Origin: Polaribacter sp.
Lineage (GTDB): Bacteria > Bacteroidota > Bacteroidia > Flavobacteriales > Flavobacteriaceae
NCBI GenBank assembly: GCA_028336245.1
Contig: JAOKTT010000009.1
Span: 1-50,039 of the forward strand
Reading direction: 5' to 3'
DNA: 50,039 bases
Numbering within the stretch: the stretch's first letter is position 1; each line of letters opens with the position of its first letter. The notes under the pieces were generated by a model, which ran no database searches, was not told the origin of the DNA, and was given only the letters and a program-made list of their open reading frames with translations. The translations under genes were made by a program, and so were the position numbers. Below, one piece after another: positions 16,302-42,986 of this stretch.

Positions 16302-17549
16302 TTAGCTGTTACTACTTTTTTTAGCAATTTTCTGGACGATTCCAACAATCACTTCTGTAGCTTTTATCATGGACTCCACAGGCAGGTATTCAAAACGTCC
16401 ATGGAAATTATGACCTCCAGCAAATATATTAGGGCAGGGGAGTCCTTTGTAAGATAATTGTGAGCCATCTGTTCCTCCCCGAATGGGCTTTATAATCGGT
16501 ACAATGCCAATATCTTTCATCACCTCTTCTACCAGATCGACAATATGCATTACAGGAACAATCTTTTCCTTCATATTAAAGTACTGGTTTTTAATTTCTA
16601 CCGCCACAATGTCCTGACCCGCAAGCTCGTTAAAATCAACAGCTATTTTTTGAATTAATTTTTTTCTTTGTTCAAACAGGTCTGCATCGTGATCTCTTAT
16701 GATGTATTCTAAAACTGTTTTTTCTACATTTCCAGTCATATCGTGTAAATGAAAAAAACCTTCATATCCAGAAGTTTTCTCTGGAACCTCTCCTGCGGGA
16801 AGTGCTGATATGAAATCATTTGCGAGCTGCATAGAGTTTATCATTTTTCCTATTGCATAACCAGGATGTACAATTTTACCTGTAATTGTCACCTTTGCAC
16901 TAGCCGCATTAAAATTTTCGTACTCTAATTCACCAATCTGACTTCCATCCATGGTATATGCCCACTCAGCACCAAATTTATTAACATCAAATTTATGGGC
17001 ACCTTTGCCTACCTCCTCGTCTGGTGTAAAACAAATTCTAACTTTTCCGTGCTTTAGCTCAGGATGTTGCAATAAATATTCCATGGCGGTCACAATCTCT
17101 GTAATTCCGGCTTTATCATCTGCTCCTAGCAATGTTGTTCCATCCGTAGTAATAATTGTTTGCCCTTTATATTGTAATAAATCCTCAAAATAATCTGGAG
17201 AAAGTATGATGTTTTTTTCTTGATTTAAAATAATATCATTTCCTTGATACTTCTCTATGAGCTGTGGCTTTATATTTTTTCCTGTAAAATCAGGACTGGT
17301 ATCGATGTGGGAAATAAAACCGATGGTAGGAACCCGATGCGTTATATTACTTGGTAGCGTAGCCATGATATAACAATTTTCATCCAATTCTATTTCTTGC
17401 ATTCCAATCTTCTTTAAATCTGCAACCAAAACATGGGCTAAATTCCATTGTTTTTCTGTACTCGGAAATTTGGGGTTATTGGGATCTGATTCGGTATCAA
17501 TGGTTACATATTTGATAAATCTATCGGTAATGTGCTTTTTATCAATCAT
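16302..17549 (-). CDS. pepT: Peptidase T (tripeptide aminopeptidase)
   Basis: A cytoplasmic M20B metallopeptidase that removes the N-terminal residue from tripeptides. The zinc ligands and catalytic residues can be placed: His81 and Asp83 in SHIDTSPDF, the bridging Asp144 in LGADDKAG, Glu178-Glu179 in TPDEEVG, Asp201 in YTMDGS, and the C-terminal histidine in AGGHNFHG. RGGTDGSQLS matches the dimerisation and substrate loop. Length (415) is normal. It is convergent with the acyltransferase and has no obvious operon partner. Confidence 0.96.
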   Translation of the reverse strand: MIDKKHITDRFIKYVTIDTESDPNNPKFPSTEKQWNLAHVLVADLKKIGMQEIELDENCYIMATLPSNITHRVPTIGFISHIDTSPDFTGKNIKPQLIEKYQGNDIILNQEKNIILSPDYFEDLLQYKGQTIITTDGTTLLGADDKAGITEIVTAMEYLLQHPELKHGKVRICFTPDEEVGKGAHKFDVNKFGAEWAYTMDGSQIGELEYENFNAASAKVTITGKIVHPGYAIGKMINSMQLANDFISALPAGEVPEKTSGYEGFFHLHDMTGNVEKTVLEYIIRDHDADLFEQRKKLIQKIAVDFNELAGQDIVAVEIKNQYFNMKEKIVPVMHIVDLVEEVMKDIGIVPIIKPIRGGTDGSQLSYKGLPCPNIFAGGHNFHGRFEYLPVESMIKATEVIVGIVQKIAKKSSNS

Positions 17550-37070: not shown

Positions 37071-38324
37071 ATGAGCACATTATCACTAATTACAGTAGAA
37101 CAACCCCAATTAATAAACGCAATAGACACTATTTGGGTAGCTATTTGCGGTGCAATTATCTTTTTTATGGAAGGTGGATTTGCATTATTAGAAGCCGGTT
37201 TTGTAAGGTCTAAAAATGCCATGAGTATTATTGCAAAGGTTATTATAGACATTACTTTTGGAGGAATTGCTTTTTATGCAATCGGTTTTGGTATTGCGTA
37301 TGGGAATTCGAACGGTTGGTTTGCATTTGATACCGGCATAACTTCAAAAGACTTAGGTTTAGGCTTAACGGTCTCTAATAAACTATTTTGGTTTATACAA
37401 TTAGGTTTTGCAATTGCAGCCATTTCTATTGTATCTGGAGCAGTAGCAGAGCGCATGAAAATTTGGAGTTATGCAATTTATGTTTTTATTTTCTGTGCAG
37501 TAATGTATCCTTTAGTTGCAAATTGGGTATGGAATCCGAATGGATGGCTAGCTGTAAGAGGTTTTAACGATTTTGCTGGTTCTGCAGCAGTGCATGCAAT
37601 GGGTGGTTTTTCTGCGTTGGCAGCAGCCATTGTTTTAGGACCAAGAATAGGAAAATACCGAAAAAATGGAGACGTAAATGCAATTCCTGGTCATAATTTA
37701 CCATTGGCAGCCATTGGCGCTTTTATATTATGGTTTGGTTGGTTTGGTTTTAACCCGGGTTCTACCTTGGGTGCAGTTGGTAATTGGGAATTAATTGGAA
37801 CTGTGGCTACAAACACATTTTTAGCCTCTGCAGCAGGTGGAATTTCAACCATGTTTTACACCTATTTTAGATACGGTCAAATAGATATTACGATGACCAT
37901 TAATGGGGTTTTGGCTGGTTTGGTTGCCATTACTGCAGGGTGCAATGTCGTGGGGCCAAATGCTGCTATTTTTATTGGTTTAATTGCAGGTGTTTTGGTG
38001 GATATTGCGGTGTTGTATATTGATAAATTAAAAATTGATGATCCTGTTGGTGCAATTGCTGTGCATGGCGTTAATGGTTTATTTGGTGCTTTGGCTGTCG
38101 GATTATTTGCTACGGATGGTGGTTTGTTTTTTGGTGGTGGTGCAGCCATGTTAGCCACACAAGCACTTGGGGTTTTTGTAATTGGTGCTTTTGGTTTTGT
38201 ATGTACTTTTATAGTGATGAAAATCATGCAAAAAACGTTTGGCATTCGAATTTCTAAGGTAGAAGAGTCTGCAGGGATCGATGCTGTTTCTTTTGGAGTA
38301 GAGGCATATTCTACTTTTGAGTAA
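37071..38324 (+). CDS. amt: Ammonium transporter
   Basis: A trimeric membrane channel for ammonium uptake. The 417 residues form about 11 helices. The pore histidine pair is His175 in DFAGSAAVHAMGG and His332 in IAVHGVNGLFG, equal to the twin histidines of E. coli AmtB. The signature ALLEAGFVRSKN is at about residues 39-50. The next gene, 24 bp later, encodes its PII regulator. The N-terminus has no obvious signal peptide. Confidence 0.96.
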   Translation: MSTLSLITVEQPQLINAIDTIWVAICGAIIFFMEGGFALLEAGFVRSKNAMSIIAKVIIDITFGGIAFYAIGFGIAYGNSNGWFAFDTGITSKDLGLGLTVSNKLFWFIQLGFAIAAISIVSGAVAERMKIWSYAIYVFIFCAVMYPLVANWVWNPNGWLAVRGFNDFAGSAAVHAMGGFSALAAAIVLGPRIGKYRKNGDVNAIPGHNLPLAAIGAFILWFGWFGFNPGSTLGAVGNWELIGTVATNTFLASAAGGISTMFYTYFRYGQIDITMTINGVLAGLVAITAGCNVVGPNAAIFIGLIAGVLVDIAVLYIDKLKIDDPVGAIAVHGVNGLFGALAVGLFATDGGLFFGGGAAMLATQALGVFVIGAFGFVCTFIVMKIMQKTFGIRISKVEESAGIDAVSFGVEAYSTFE

Positions 38325-38348
38325 TTATAATGAACTAAATTTAAAAAC

Positions 38349-38690
38349 ATGAAAAAAATAGAAGCAATTATAAGACCATCAAAGCTAAAGGATGTACAAA
38401 CAGGTTTAAAAGCAGCTGGCATACCCTGTAATACAATAATTCCCGTAAAAGGAAGTGGATTACAAAAAACATATACAGAGCGCTATCGTGGCACCGAACA
38501 ATCGATGATTCTGCAAACAAGAATTATGATCATTTGTGTGGTGAGTGATGACAATCTTGAAACCGCGATTGCTGTTATTTTAGAAAATGCCTCAGAAAAT
38601 TTAGTGGGCGACGGTAAGATATTTATTTATGCCGTTGAAGATGCCATTAGAATTCGAACTAAAACAAGAGGAGTAGAAGCTATTAAATAA
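38349..38690 (+). CDS. glnK: PII signal-transduction protein paired with Amt
   Basis: A 113-residue trimeric PII protein that senses ATP/ADP and 2-oxoglutarate and plugs the ammonium channel at low nitrogen demand. Conserved parts are KKIEAIIRPSKL, GDGKIFIYAVEDAIRIRT and the T-loop TERYRGTEQ. In the T-loop, Tyr46 is present but the residue equal to Tyr51, the uridylylation site of enterobacterial PII, is Gln. So control is likely by ligands only. It lies 24 bp after amt. Symbol glnK is chosen for this linkage; glnB would be equally valid by sequence. Confidence 0.95.
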   Translation: MKKIEAIIRPSKLKDVQTGLKAAGIPCNTIIPVKGSGLQKTYTERYRGTEQSMILQTRIMIICVVSDDNLETAIAVILENASENLVGDGKIFIYAVEDAIRIRTKTRGVEAIK

Positions 38691-39012: not shown

Positions 39013-39426
39013 TTAATGAGGCAATCTATCCTTAAATAATCCATATAAAAAAGTACCTAAAAGAGCTGCTATAATTACGATGAAAATTGAAATATAACCT
39101 GCTCCAACTAAAGTAAACATTGGTCCTGGACAAGCACCTGCTAAGGCCCAGCCTAAACCAAATATAATTCCGCCAAACAGATAACGCTTAAAGCCTTTTG
39201 CTTTTGGGGCAAAGTTTATTTTTTCTCCATAGAAAGATTTGATTTTGAATCTTTTGATTGATTGGACTAGTATACTTCCAATAAATAATGCAGCACCAAT
39301 AATACCATACATATGAAAGGATTCAAATTTGAACATTTCATAAATACGAAACCAGGAAGCTGCTTCCGATTTAAACATTGTGATTCCGAAAAGGATTCCG
39401 ATACATAAATAGACAAGTGTTCTCAT
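39013..39426 (-). CDS. YeeE/YedE-family sulfur transporter, second half (PmpB-like)
   Basis: A 137-residue membrane protein with about four helices. It has the conserved cysteine motif GLGWALAGACPGP (about residues 90-102), which is found in the YeeE/YedE family that moves thiosulfate or other reduced sulfur compounds through the inner membrane by cysteine relay. It starts 3 bp after the other half-transporter, so the two probably assemble as a pair equal to one full YeeE. It is the last gene of the operon. Confidence 0.88.
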   Translation of the reverse strand: MRTLVYLCIGILFGITMFKSEAASWFRIYEMFKFESFHMYGIIGAALFIGSILVQSIKRFKIKSFYGEKINFAPKAKGFKRYLFGGIIFGLGWALAGACPGPMFTLVGAGYISIFIVIIAALLGTFLYGLFKDRLPH

Positions 39427-39429
39427 AGT

Positions 39430-39987
39430 TTAAAAAAGTAAAGGGAAAATAAAATGAATCATTGTGAGGCCTCCTATAAAGAAACCTATGACAGCTATTA
39501 AAGAAGGCAATTGTAAGTTACTTAATCCTGAAATTGCGTGACCAGAAGTACAACCTCCAGCATACCGTGCTCCAAAACCTACGAACAATCCTCCAATGGT
39601 TAAAACCAATACACTTTTGAGGCTTCGTAATGCTTCAGTACCGAATAACTCCGTAGGAAGGTATGCCGTTCCTGCACTTTCAAAACCGAGCGCCTTTAAA
39701 TCTGAAATGGTCTCTGGATGTATTGCTACGGCTAAATTGGTACTTAGAAAATAAGACCCTATAAATCCGCCGATAATAGTACCAGACACCACAACTAAAT
39801 TCCACTTTTGCGCTTTCCAGTCAAATTTAAAGAAATCAGCTTTGTTACCTGCTCCACAAATAGTGCACATTGTGCGTAAGTTAGAAGACATTCCAAAATT
39901 TTTATCGACCATTATAAGTAAGAACATTATAAAGGCAATCATTGGGCCAGCTATATACCAAGGCCACGGTTCGTATATCCAATTCAT
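39430..39987 (-). CDS. YeeE/YedE-family sulfur transporter, first half (PmpA-like)
   Basis: A 185-residue membrane protein with about five helices. Two cysteine sites are visible: MCTICGAGNK (about residues 38-47), and FGARYAGGCTSGHAISG (about 135-151), in which the Cys is the conserved sulfur-handling residue of YeeE proteins. It starts 9 bp after the persulfide-dioxygenase gene and ends 3 bp before its partner half. It probably imports or moves thiosulfate or sulfane sulfur for the enzyme encoded beside it. Confidence 0.9.
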   Translation of the reverse strand: MNWIYEPWPWYIAGPMIAFIMFLLIMVDKNFGMSSNLRTMCTICGAGNKADFFKFDWKAQKWNLVVVSGTIIGGFIGSYFLSTNLAVAIHPETISDLKALGFESAGTAYLPTELFGTEALRSLKSVLVLTIGGLFVGFGARYAGGCTSGHAISGLSNLQLPSLIAVIGFFIGGLTMIHFIFPLLF

Positions 39988-39996
39988 TTTTATAAT

Positions 39997-41406
39997 TTAT
40001 AATGTTGATGGGCAAACGTATGCTGAAACTGCAACGTTTACCTCTTTTATTGCTTTAAAACCACCTTGAACGTTTATTAAATTGTGAATGCCTCTACTTT
40101 TTAGAATAGATGCTGCAATTATACTTCTGTAGCCTCCTGCACAATGGACATAGAAGGTTTCTGTATCTGGAAATTCTGCAAGATGGTTGTTAATATACGC
40201 TAAGGGTGTATTATCTGCACCTAATACATGCTCTGAATAGAACTCATCTTCTTTTCTTACATCAAAAACAGGAACATCTCCAGTTTCTTTTGCTTCTTTA
40301 AAAGTTGTTGCTGGAATAGAACTTACGGTATCATAATCTTTAGAAGCTTTTTTCCAGGCATCAAAGCCACCTTTTAAATACCCTAAAGTTTGGTCAAAAC
40401 CAACACGCGATAAACGTGTAATTGTTTCTTCTTCTCTGCCAACCGCTGTAACTAGTAGTATTGGCTTTTTAACATCTGCAATTAAAGCGCCTACCCAAGG
40501 TGCAAAACCGCCATCTAATCCTATAAAGATGGAACGTGGAATGTGCCCTTTTGCAAAATCATTTTCAGTACGCACATCTAGTACAATGGCTTCTGTTTCA
40601 TTTGCTGCAATTTCAAAATCTTCAGGAGTTAAGGCTTGAGTACTGCGTTCTAACACATCTTCAAAATCGTCATACCCCTCTTTATTCATCTGTACGTTTA
40701 CCGGAAAGTATTGAGGTGGTGGTAATAAACCATCTGTAACTTCTTTAATAAACTCTTCTTTAGTCATATCAGCACGTAAAGCATAATTTGTTTGCTTTTG
40801 GTTTCCTAACAGATCTACTGTTTCCTTGCTTAATTTTTTACCACAAGAGGAACCAGCTCCATGTGCCGGATACACAATTACATCATCTGCTAAAGGCATT
40901 ATTTTAGTTCGAAGACTGTCGAATAAAAAACCTGCTAAATCTTCTGCGGTCATGCTTCCTTTTTTTTGTGCTAAATCTGGACGCCCTACATCTCCTAAAA
41001 ATAACGTGTCTCCGCTAAAAATAGCATGGTCTTTTCCATGTTCATCTTTTAAAAGATATACAGAACTTTCCATGGTATGCCCTGGTGTATGTAAAACAGT
41101 AATTGTTATATTACCCAATTTAAAGACTTGATCGTTTTTTGCGATGATGGCTTCAAAACTTGTTGCTGCATTCGGACCAAAAATAATTGGTGCTCCCGTT
41201 TCTTTAGATAAAGTAACATGCCCACTCACAAAATCTGCGTGGAAATGTGTTTCGAAAATGTATTTAATCTTGGCATTGTCCGCTTTCGCTTTTTCTATAT
41301 ATGGTTTTACGGCACGCAGCGGATCTATAATAGCAACTTCGCCATTACTCTCAATATAATAAGCGCCTTGCGATAAACATCCTGTATATATTTGTTCTAT
41401 TTTCAT
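39997..41406 (-). CDS. Persulfide dioxygenase-like MBL protein fused to two rhodanese domains
   Basis: A 469-residue enzyme. The metallo-beta-lactamase domain (1 to about 235) has THFHADF (His54, His56, Asp58), TPGHTMES and FSGDTLFLGDVGRPDL; these fit the mononuclear-iron site of ETHE1-type persulfide dioxygenases. The residue after the aspartate is Phe59 where two-metal hydrolases have His. Two rhodanese domains follow: about 260-355, with no catalytic cysteine (VTAVGREEE), and about 365-465, with Cys422 in VHCAGGYRS. So it probably oxidises persulfides and moves sulfane sulfur, like staphylococcal CstB. It leads the transporter pair in one operon. Confidence 0.92.
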   Translation of the reverse strand: MKIEQIYTGCLSQGAYYIESNGEVAIIDPLRAVKPYIEKAKADNAKIKYIFETHFHADFVSGHVTLSKETGAPIIFGPNAATSFEAIIAKNDQVFKLGNITITVLHTPGHTMESSVYLLKDEHGKDHAIFSGDTLFLGDVGRPDLAQKKGSMTAEDLAGFLFDSLRTKIMPLADDVIVYPAHGAGSSCGKKLSKETVDLLGNQKQTNYALRADMTKEEFIKEVTDGLLPPPQYFPVNVQMNKEGYDDFEDVLERSTQALTPEDFEIAANETEAIVLDVRTENDFAKGHIPRSIFIGLDGGFAPWVGALIADVKKPILLVTAVGREEETITRLSRVGFDQTLGYLKGGFDAWKKASKDYDTVSSIPATTFKEAKETGDVPVFDVRKEDEFYSEHVLGADNTPLAYINNHLAEFPDTETFYVHCAGGYRSIIAASILKSRGIHNLINVQGGFKAIKEVNVAVSAYVCPSTL

Positions 41407-41427
41407 AATCTGATTTTAAATAATATT

Positions 41428-41471
41428 CAAATGTATGGCTTCATTATCACCTGCACAGTAACATTAGTTAC
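41428..41471 (-). promoter_or_regulatory. Promoter and Crp/Fnr-type site of the persulfide operon
   Basis: On the minus strand TACATTTG (41428-41435) is a -7 box 22 bp before the gene start. GTAACATTAGTTAC (41458-41471) is a GTAAC-N4-GTTAC palindrome, exactly 22 bp further upstream, with its centre near -43. The same arrangement precedes the TauE gene. The position fits a Class II activator site. Confidence 0.75.
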
Positions 41472-41475
41472 ACTT

Positions 41476-42279
41476 CTATTTTACAAAAAATTCCATATAA
41501 AATATAAAAAGGGCCATTACAAAAATAAAATATCCAAAGCCTTTCTTTAGTTTTTTTCCATCTACGAAATTTCCTAAGTAGCTACCAATGAAAATACCAA
41601 CGATGGATATCGAGGTAAAAGCTGCCAAAAACGCCCAATCTATCGCCATGATAAAGACATCTCCAAGGAAGAAGCCCATTAACGATTTAAATGCAATGAT
41701 TATAAGCGATGTTGCAACAGCTACTTTCATTTCTACATTGGCAAGTATTACCAAAGCAGGGATGATTAAAAATCCGCCACCGGCACCTATCATTCCTGTA
41801 CTTGCACCCACAATTAAGCCTTCTATTATAATAAGACGGTAATTATATTTTACAGCGCCGGAGGTTTCTTTTTCTTTTCTTTCCTTTAGCATTGAAAAAG
41901 CTGCAGGAATCATAAGTACAGCAAAAAAACCAAACATTCCCATGCGTCTTGTAAACTCAAAATCTGCTATATTAAATAAGACATCGGGTAATGCAGGTAC
42001 TACATAATGCCTTATTAAAGAAACACCAACAATTGCTGGAAGACCAAATACAATAGCTGTACGCCAATCTACCAAACCTTTAAGGTGTTGTTTTAAGCCA
42101 CCTACTAAGGCACTTGCCCCAATAATAAATAAGGAATATGCGGTGGCTACTTTTTCGTTGACGGAGAACAAATAGGCTAAAACAGGAACTGCTAATATTG
42201 AGCCACCACCACCGATTAAACCTAAGGAGATGCCAATAATTAAAGCTGAGATATATCCAAAAATTTCAAGTATTTCCAT
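41476..42279 (-). CDS. TauE/SafE-family sulfite/organosulfur exporter
   Basis: A 267-residue inner-membrane protein with about seven to eight helices and two TauE repeats: GISLGLIGGGGSILAVPVLAYL near the N-terminus and GASTGMIGAGGGFLIIPALVIL in the middle. This family exports sulfite, sulfoacetate or related anions. Beside a persulfide dioxygenase, which makes sulfite, export of that product is a good inference. It has its own promoter, identical in design to that of the downstream gene. Confidence 0.92.
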   Translation of the reverse strand: MEILEIFGYISALIIGISLGLIGGGGSILAVPVLAYLFSVNEKVATAYSLFIIGASALVGGLKQHLKGLVDWRTAIVFGLPAIVGVSLIRHYVVPALPDVLFNIADFEFTRRMGMFGFFAVLMIPAAFSMLKERKEKETSGAVKYNYRLIIIEGLIVGASTGMIGAGGGFLIIPALVILANVEMKVAVATSLIIIAFKSLMGFFLGDVFIMAIDWAFLAAFTSISIVGIFIGSYLGNFVDGKKLKKGFGYFIFVMALFIFYMEFFVK

Positions 42280-42302
42280 AAAATATTTTTCTTTATTTAT
42301 GG

Positions 42303-42346
42303 CAAATGTAATTTGGAAAAGTGAGCGCTACAGTAACATTGGTTAC
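42303..42346 (-). promoter_or_regulatory. Promoter and Crp/Fnr-type site of the TauE gene
   Basis: On the minus strand TACATTTG (42303-42310) is a -7 box 23 bp before the gene start. GTAACATTGGTTAC (42333-42346) lies exactly 22 bp further upstream, the same spacing as at the persulfide-operon promoter. The shared core of the two sites reads ACAGTAACATT(A/G)GTTACAC on the plus strand. Confidence 0.75.
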
Positions 42347-42353
42347 ACAGGCA

Positions 42354-42986
42354 TTACATATCTTTGATTAAAATAGAGCTTCGATTTAATTCTATTTTAC
42401 CTAATTTTTCAAGTTTTTTTAGCAGTCTAGAAATAACGACTCTAGAGGTGTGAAGTTCATAGGCAATGTCTTGGTGCGTGCTATGAATGGTATTGTCTTT
42501 TGAAATTCTAACTTTCTCAACAAGATATTTAAGCAGCCGTTCATCCATTTTTAGAAAGGCAATACTATCTATTGTTTCAAGCATTTCATTGAGTCTGTTA
42601 TGATAACTTTCAAAAACAAAATGTCTCCAACTTTTATATTTTTCTGACCATTCTTCCATTTGTTGAATAGGAATCATAATTAGTTTTGCATCGGTTTCGG
42701 CGATGGCTCTGATTTCACTTTTTGTGTGGGCAACACAGCAGGTTAACGTCATCGCACAAGTATCCCCTTTTTCTAAAAAATACAGCAATAACTCATCTCC
42801 ATCAGTATCTTCCCTTAATATTTTTATGGCTCCTGAAATTAATAAAGGCATGGCTTTCACATAGTCTCCAATTTCCATCAGCTTAAATCCTTCAGGAACT
42901 TCTTTGAAGGTTCCAACTTGATTTATTTCATTTAAAAGGGCATCTTCAAATAGGTGTCCAAAATTGTTTTTAAGCGCTTGAATCAT
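42354..42986 (-). CDS. Crp/Fnr-family transcription regulator of the sulfur locus
   Basis: A 210-residue activator with an N-terminal cyclic-nucleotide-binding-like beta roll (about 1-120), a long dimer helix and a C-terminal winged HTH (THQDIAYELHTSRVVISRLL, about 168-187). The sensor domain has Cys77, Cys83 and Cys84 in DTCAMTLTCC, which could sense thiols or persulfides. The four N-terminal cysteines of iron-sulfur FNR are absent. It sits directly upstream of the TauE gene, and two identical GTAAC palindromes precede the sulfur genes, so it is the obvious candidate to bind them. A 25-bp palindrome lies 35 bp before its own start. Confidence 0.9.
   Translation of the reverse strand: MIQALKNNFGHLFEDALLNEINQVGTFKEVPEGFKLMEIGDYVKAMPLLISGAIKILREDTDGDELLLYFLEKGDTCAMTLTCCVAHTKSEIRAIAETDAKLIMIPIQQMEEWSEKYKSWRHFVFESYHNRLNEMLETIDSIAFLKMDERLLKYLVEKVRISKDNTIHSTHQDIAYELHTSRVVISRLLKKLEKLGKIELNRSSILIKDM

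Follow-up and report, generated by a model that had tools for sequence, protein, structure and literature searches.

A candidate Crp/Fnr-type regulator of reactive-sulfur genes and its conserved composite promoter in Polaribacter and other Flavobacteriaceae

The dedicated regulators of reactive sulfur described in the literature include CstR (CsoR-like), BigR/SqrR (ArsR-type), and FisR (PMC9774590, PMC7315123, PMC5480029). In addition, several general regulators respond to sulfane sulfur, such as OxyR, PerR, LasR, OhrR, and AdpA, as given in titles and reference lists. None of these, as portrayed in the portions of those sources drawn on here, is a dedicated Crp/Fnr sensor. Searches of open-access PMC articles for Crp/Fnr proteins together with reactive sulfur brought up no dedicated regulator that we recognised, which does not show absence from print; and the words “Bacteroid” and “FNR” are absent from the main text of a review of reactive sulfur (PMC9774590). 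Here, we describe a cluster of five genes from Polaribacter sp. (assembly GCA_028336245.1, contig JAOKTT010000009.1, positions 1–50,039; this whole stretch of 50,039 nucleotides is called the window), in which a Crp/Fnr-type protein is encoded beside genes for a persulfide dioxygenase and sulfur transporters, and in which two promoters carry the same palindrome at the same distance from the same −7 box. That these sites are real and head a regulon is well supported. We consider it probable, with room for doubt, that the regulator is a dedicated Crp/Fnr activator for reactive-sulfur (persulfide/polysulfide) stress in the Flavobacteriaceae, which senses its signal via Cys77, Cys83, and Cys84.

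The cluster occupies positions 39013–42986, and the list of open reading frames (ORFs) together with Pfam matches bears out the five minus-strand genes that the initial annotation of this DNA had placed there. The first gene (42354–42986) encodes a Crp/Fnr-type regulator of 210 amino acids (cNMP_binding and HTH_Crp_2), of which the only cysteines are Cys77, Cys83, and Cys84 and the recognition helix is TSRVVISR; the assignment draws on Pfam, conservation across 81 sequences, and the AlphaFold fold. It is followed by a predicted TauE/SafE-type anion exporter (41476–42279; Pfam TauE, 1.8e-37), for which sulfite or thiosulfate is suggested as substrate by the family name. The third gene, pdo (39997–41406), encodes a persulfide dioxygenase with a Lactamase_B domain and two rhodanese stretches. 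Residues 3–454 of its 469 align to PDB entries 3tp9 and 3r2u, the latter of which we take to be the Staphylococcus aureus CstB entry. The C-terminal rhodanese retains the catalytic cysteine (HCAGGYRS), whereas the first (middle) one has no cysteine at the matching place; this is the CstB-type architecture, i.e., a metallo-beta-lactamase with two rhodaneses and the catalytic cysteine in the C-terminal one only. The last two genes encode the halves of a split YeeE/YedE sulfur transporter of the PmpAB type: two adjoining short proteins, both above the Pfam Sulf_transp cut-off, with weak matches to different parts of TsuA. The half at 39430–39987 (Sulf_transp, 4.5e-17) matches the C-terminal part (residues 271–328; NCBIfam TsuA 42 bits, cut-off 400), and that at 39013–39426 (DUF6691 and Sulf_transp) matches the N-terminal part (residues 5–111; 20 bits, same cut-off). 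The Crp/Fnr protein is the sole regulator among the five genes, which include no CsoR-, ArsR-, or Fis-type regulator of the kind that controls CstR, BigR, or FisR operons.

Within the window, GTAACATTAGTTAC (41458–41471) and GTAACATTGGTTAC (42333–42346) are the two perfect matches to GTAAC-N4-GTTAC. Read on the minus strand, GTAACCAATGTTAC at 42333–42346 is the predicted operator of the tauE promoter and GTAACTAATGTTAC at 41458–41471 that of the pdo promoter. Each lies exactly 22 bp ahead of the flavobacterial −7 box TACATTTG (minus strand, 42303–42310 for tauE and 41428–41435 for pdo), so that the composites span 42303–42346 and 41428–41471, as had been noticed at the outset. The regulator gene ends 7 bases before the first palindrome, and tauE has, therefore, its own promoter between crp and tauE. 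The second palindrome is located between tauE and pdo; since the yeeE halves come after pdo with gaps of no more than 10 bp each, they probably share the pdo promoter. Thus, the five genes probably form three transcription units (crp; tauE; pdo-yeeAB). The view of them as a self-contained operon was too narrow, the more so as in relatives this site stands at the head of many other operons.

The palindrome centre had initially been put near −43. Start-site mapping in F. psychrophilum places the −7 box at −12 to −5 (PMC9723704, for the part of that work drawn on here), and with this placement the palindrome falls at −48 to −35 and its centre at −41.5. The named loci considered below are the best 80 of at least 440 relatives, i.e., the closest ones, to which the window was added to give 81. 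These 81 loci contain 181 perfect palindromes, 79 of which are followed by an exact TAnnTTTG box at 22 bp, compared with no more than 4 at any other distance from 0 to 59; many of the remaining palindromes have a box with one mismatch at 22 bp. A centre at −41.5 is the activator position of CRP and FNR under the class II rule. Alignment of the 79 promoters revealed an extra T before GTAAC in 94%, and T and G after GTTAC in 86% and 82%, respectively. This TG falls at −34/−33, which is presumably near the −33 element, and its position would fit an activator that overlaps that element.

The identity of the two composites had been judged hard to explain by chance. This holds for their spacing and conservation. 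The number of palindromes alone is only moderately unusual, because three or more matches with at most one mismatch occurred in 5 of 100 shuffles of the window (mean 0.75); the third match in the window itself, with one mismatch, is at 17494, inside a coding ORF. The case, therefore, rests on the identical spacing and on conservation. Outside the window, the source assembly (53.6% complete, 1.38 Mb, 58 contigs) holds one further perfect palindrome (C34), within a coding region. A scan for sigma-70 promoters gave 18 matches in comparison with 22.4 in shuffles, i.e., no excess; terminator-like matches were above shuffles (11 in comparison with 3.2), and none was used in the analysis.

Conservation in relatives was the test that the initial annotation had set in advance, and the sites, their spacing, and their position proved to be strongly kept and to track the regulator across genomes. 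Homologues were accepted at 45% identity for tauE, 50% for pdo and yeeA, and 60% for crp; genes with usable upstream sequence were counted, those inside operons were set aside and counted separately, and up to one mismatch was allowed. In the 80 loci, the site lies upstream of pdo in 63/65, tauE in 35/42, yeeA in 23/32, and the regulator gene in 11/77; when the −7 box is required as well, the counts become 63/65, 35/42, 18/32, and 11/77. Among 5,500 order-1 resamples of the sequence upstream of tauE and pdo, 28 had a site. Operon heads carry the site in 114 of 131 cases (a count that omits the single yeeB operon head, which is without it), in comparison with none of 36 homologues inside operons. 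The same was seen in 20 loci whose regulators have about 53% identity, where the gene order is crp-yeeAB-tauE-pdo in 13: the site (GTRAC-N4-GTYAC, one mismatch) precedes yeeA in 14/17 and pdo in 12/14, and none of 13 in-operon tauE genes, with 28 of 3,100 resamples having a match. The site tracks the transcription unit rather than the gene, and has moved to new operon heads.

A second line of evidence comes from whole genomes. In a set of 199 Flavobacteriaceae genomes, the composite promoter was found in 132/167 of those bearing the regulator and in 2/32 of those without it, and these two are incomplete (87% and 73%). There are 288 composite matches in 134 genomes (counted per strand, so that one palindrome may count twice), in comparison with 8 for the reversed pattern. 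Regulator-less genomes tend to be small. Genome size is not the explanation, since the composite is present in 2/13 regulator-less genomes of at least 2.2 Mb and in 16/21 regulator-bearing genomes of at most 2.4 Mb. With a stricter orthologue cut (near 1e-60), the composite is found in 129/152 genomes with the orthologue and in 5/47 others; where only weak regulator matches are present (E 1e-20 to about 1e-60), there are sites in 3/15. In a 296-genome sample of the phylum, which overlaps partly with the 199 genomes, the composite is present in 19/25 genomes with a strong orthologue and in 11/271 others, and the reversed pattern gave 7 matches. The idea of the site as a chance occurrence was rejected on this genome-wide link to the regulator, on the upstream counts, and on the spacing distribution.

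The link extends to another family of the same class. One genome of that family (G457; loci L188 and L148) has a regulator of 60% identity, and the 26-kb stretch in which it lies contains six palindromes that give seven composite matches. Downstream of these sites are two dioxygenase-like genes, one assigned by family scan and the other by eye, together with a TauE-like gene (by eye), a gene resembling that for sulfide:quinone oxidoreductase (SQR), and three unassigned ORFs. Other regulator matches in the same family have 36–45% identity and a second copy in G457 has 34%, while three further members of the family gave no regulator match at the same cut-off. To judge from these sequences, G457 is likely to have acquired regulator and sites together by horizontal transfer.

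The cluster belongs to a regulon that spans many loci, which is well supported by the genes found behind the site elsewhere. For this purpose, 60 sites were chosen by hand among listed matches of the 288, favouring places away from the regulator, and the mix of targets is not random: 45 are on another contig or more than 30 kb from the regulator, 11 are within 20 kb (L085, L095, L096, L099, L102, L108, L113, L114, L115, L122, and L125), and 4 have no listed regulator position. An ORF of at least 80 amino acids follows 57 of the 60. Among the families listed (25 of 34, with thioredoxin-type models overlapping), Pfam gave outer membrane efflux protein 17 times, rhodanese 7, AhpC-TSA 5, thioredoxin 4, TauE 3, SulP 2, and YgaP-like 2, with single cases of cytochrome bd, OsmC, DsrE, and HMA. 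Four of the seven rhodanese proteins also have the beta-lactamase fold and are dioxygenases. The commonest class is that of TolC-type outer membrane efflux genes (17/57); the one case followed out (L145:3479–9300, G027) is an operon for TolC, an adaptor, and an RND permease, with a DUF302-like ORF upstream (by eye). Six sites (L103, L110, L113, L121, L130, and L135) are followed by a gene for a secreted protein of about 120 amino acids (no Pfam match in the one member scanned) and then by a short DoxX-like membrane protein and a DsrE-like ORF (by eye). SQR-like genes have a site in L026, L008, and G457, and the two scanned match NCBIfam type III SQR below its cut-off. Not all targets are sulfur genes, as aldehyde dehydrogenase, a porin, fatty-acid hydroxylase, and others occur singly; a CzcA-like pump follows two sites (by eye).

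The regulator is a member of the Crp/Fnr superfamily: it exceeds the cut-offs of Pfam PF00027 and PF13545, and its AlphaFold model (mean pLDDT 87.6, pTM 0.63) has a CRP-like fold that superimposes on 4ev0_D over 202 residues (Z 17.2, rmsd 3.4). Its NCBIfam scores are below the cut-offs of the best known members, with 51 bits for CRP (cut-off 266), which speaks against its being a CRP, 40 bits for NtcA (cut-off 245), and 23 bits for FNR (cut-off 228). E. coli CRP contacts cAMP through Glu72 and Arg82; in the profile alignment, Glu72 is opposite a gap and Arg82 opposite a Thr, with a conserved Lys89 one place along. FNR is a [4Fe-4S] oxygen sensor with four cluster-ligand cysteines, whereas the window regulator has three cysteines in all. 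In the 81 orthologues, Cys77 is present in 81, Cys83 in 81, and Cys84 in 79, and no other cysteine column is common to five or more. The profile alignment places the stretch from Cys77 to Cys84 over what we take to be the cAMP phosphate-binding cassette of E. coli CRP. In the AlphaFold model, a strand ends before Cys77, and a helix (79–86) carries Cys83 and Cys84; residues 71–90 are among the lowest-confidence blocks (means 74–80), so the spatial arrangement of the cysteines is uncertain.

Further from the window, all 20 regulators of about 53% identity have Cys77 and 15 have Cys83; of 20 more distant Bacteroidota homologues (36–60% identity), all keep Cys77 and 16 keep Cys83. In the loci of about 53% identity, Cys83 is found in 14/14 with pdo and 1/6 without, a count in which independence is overstated, as the loci are related; of the six, L180 is truncated downstream, where its contig ends. 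Regulators without Cys83 and Cys84 stand ahead of yeeAB in L169, L179, L180, and L187, where the available stretch, which in L180 ends with the contig, contains no dioxygenase gene; perhaps, these form a sub-family with another signal. Separately, a second Crp/Fnr protein (35–39% identity, Cys77 only, helix SREVISR) is encoded near the sulfur genes in 8/80 loci (L009, L012, L026, L032, L034, L048, L059, and L062), and half-altered sites (GTAAC..GTCAC) are present in several of these.

Taken with the gene content, promoter geometry, and homology of the proteins, these data suggest how the system might work. The window regulator would bind GTAAC-N4-GTTAC centred at −41.5, in the class II position, touching the −33 region, and would recruit RNA polymerase to promoters with the TAnnTTTG −7 box, acting as an activator rather than as a repressor. 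The signal, predicted to be reactive sulfur, would be read by Cys77 together with Cys83 and Cys84, at the place where CRP binds the cAMP phosphate, and a persulfide, disulfide, or polysulfide bridge at these cysteines may set the DNA-binding conformation. By family, the dioxygenase-rhodanese is expected to oxidise persulfide sulfur to sulfite and to hand on sulfane sulfur, TauE to export the product of the dioxygenase step, and the YeeE halves to move sulfane sulfur or thiosulfate. In relatives, the same site precedes genes for SQR-like enzymes, SulP, thioredoxins, peroxiredoxins, DsrE/DoxX-type proteins, TolC/RND efflux, and cytochrome bd. Reactive sulfur is preferred as the signal because the most constant targets remove it. 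The model first put forward for this DNA, of a Crp/Fnr protein that senses reactive sulfur, is thus partly upheld: the sites are conserved and Cys77, Cys83, and Cys84 are the only conserved cysteines, while the self-contained operon has given way to a regulon, and signal, binding, and activation are suggested by sequence comparison.

Several observations weigh against this proposal. An exact composite match is lacking in 35 of the 167 regulator-bearing genomes, so either the pattern is stricter than the true motif or the regulator has diverged. In the window, no palindrome was seen by eye upstream of the regulator gene, so autoregulation is not implied there, and only the 11 of 77 regulator genes noted above have a site of their own in relatives. 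Of the five regulators of about 53% identity without Cys83, two still have the site before yeeA (L179 perfect, L180 with one mismatch), and the cysteine pair is, therefore, not needed for every family member. The expected correspondence of recognition helix and site breaks down in some cases. A strict code (Val183 for GTAAC, Glu183 for GTGAC) is not claimed, because it is contradicted by L023, an orthologue with Glu183 and GTAAC sites, and by several Val183 regulators beside GTGAC sites; it had looked convincing among the distant relatives that keep Cys77 and Cys83, with a site in six of seven with Val and in none of nine with Glu, a tally that set aside 4 of the 20 loci, which lack Cys83 (three with Val and one with Glu) and have no site. 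The comparative data separate activation from repression only through the position of the site. Finally, the TolC/RND, CzcA, and HMA target classes would also suit a sensor of soft metals or electrophiles.

This last point leads to the alternative that survives best, in which regulator, sites, and regulon are the same and what the cysteines primarily read is a more general stress, thiol-reactive or caused by soft metals (electrophiles, HNO/NO, hypochlorous acid, or Cu(I)), with the sulfur genes as one arm of the response. TolC-type efflux is the commonest class among the sampled sites, including the RND operon in L145; thioredoxins, a peroxiredoxin, OsmC, HMA, and CzcA-like proteins are among the targets; and HNO is reported to induce the cst sulfur operon in S. 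aureus as well (PMC5480029, in the portion drawn on). However, the most consistent targets are sulfur genes, namely pdo and tauE, with SQR-like, SulP, rhodanese, and DsrE genes alongside, and the linked island of G457 contains sulfur-oxidation genes. We regard this broader signal as unlikely, although it deserves to be taken seriously. Less likely again is that the regulator represses at these sites and is released by persulfide, in the manner of CstR (PMC5480029) or BigR (PMC7315123). Several dedicated reactive-sulfur regulators are described in these sources as repressors, though FisR activates; but a centre fixed at −41.5, upstream of the −7 box (as placed from PMC9723704) and not over it, is where the class II rule would put an activator. 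That the sites are read by another Crp/Fnr paralogue, for example the Cys77-only protein encoded nearby in 8/80 loci, several of which have GTCAC-half sites, and that the first gene of the cluster is incidental, is very improbable, as the sites follow the orthologue (129/152 genomes) rather than any Crp/Fnr protein (3/15 with weak matches only) and co-occur with it in another family too.

If a reactive-sulfur activator of this kind is confirmed, it would add a new mechanism to those by which bacteria perceive sulfide stress. With the operator and the promoter geometry defined and three residues as candidates, sulfide sensing in these bacteria can be tested directly, and the efflux link, if true, would connect exposure to sulfide with the export of drugs or metals in a large environmental family. 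On a wider proposal we are evenly divided: that a Crp/Fnr family with a thiol switch in the cyclic-nucleotide pocket serves as master activator of the response to reactive sulfur in the Flavobacteriaceae and some other Bacteroidota, where one class II promoter design would tie together persulfide oxidation, sulfur transport, thiol repair, sulfide-resistant respiration, and TolC/RND efflux, and that this family could pass to other bacterial families as an island that brings its sites along. As to the surroundings of the cluster, genes for an ammonium transporter and a PII protein adjoin it on the opposite strand (37071–38690), and no link between these and the sulfur genes was seen in the window.

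Among known systems, the S. aureus cst operon (CstR, TauE, CstA, CstB, and SQR) likewise has TauE and a dioxygenase with two rhodanese domains, and 3r2u aligns with the window dioxygenase over nearly its full length. Dithiol-based persulfide sensing would be the logic common to both, as it is put forward for cst in the passages drawn on (PMC5480029, PMC9774590). However, CstR is a CsoR-like repressor, whereas the window system has a Crp/Fnr protein, a geometry presumed to be that of an activator, and a regulon spread across many loci. The BigR/PigS operons (A. baumannii bigR with PDO2 and YeeE/YedE; Serratia pmpAB) also pair a persulfide dioxygenase with a YeeE/YedE-type transporter, according to the parts of those reports used here (PMC7315123, PMC11582611); BigR is an ArsR-family repressor and, unlike the window, these operons are without a Crp/Fnr protein. 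FisR of Cupriavidus and Acinetobacter is described as activating sulfide-oxidising genes in response to sulfane sulfur via conserved cysteines (PMC9774590, PMC7315123, each in part), and differs in being a sigma-54-dependent activator. Sulfur chemistry on a Crp protein has a precedent in A. baumannii Crp, for which persulfidation is reported in sulfide-exposed cells, and glutathione is reported as an allosteric activator of Vfr and PrfA (PMC7315123, in the sections concerned). These three are global or virulence regulators, and the persulfidated cysteine of Crp is described there as lying opposite the ligand pocket, whereas those of the window regulator align with the pocket of CRP.

The nearest solved sequence is that of a Crp/Fnr protein from Eubacterium rectale (PDB 3dv8; 1e-24, profile), which has cysteines at both the Cys77 and Cys83 positions, and Glu, not Val, in the recognition helix; it is listed as a structure only. 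NtcA, CRP, and Vfr have the Crp/Fnr fold in common with the window regulator. The NtcA site is GTA-N8-TAC, with which GTAAC-N4-GTTAC is compatible, as the sites contain it, and alignment of the helices revealed the same R-V-x-x-x-R in NtcA and the window regulator. In contrast, NtcA, CRP, and Vfr bind 2-oxoglutarate or cAMP, and the pocket segment of the window regulator has cysteines instead. This is a real and conserved regulatory system, in which the known combination of a dithiol reactive-sulfur regulator with a dioxygenase operon would be built on a different protein family, and in which the regulator is probably an activator.

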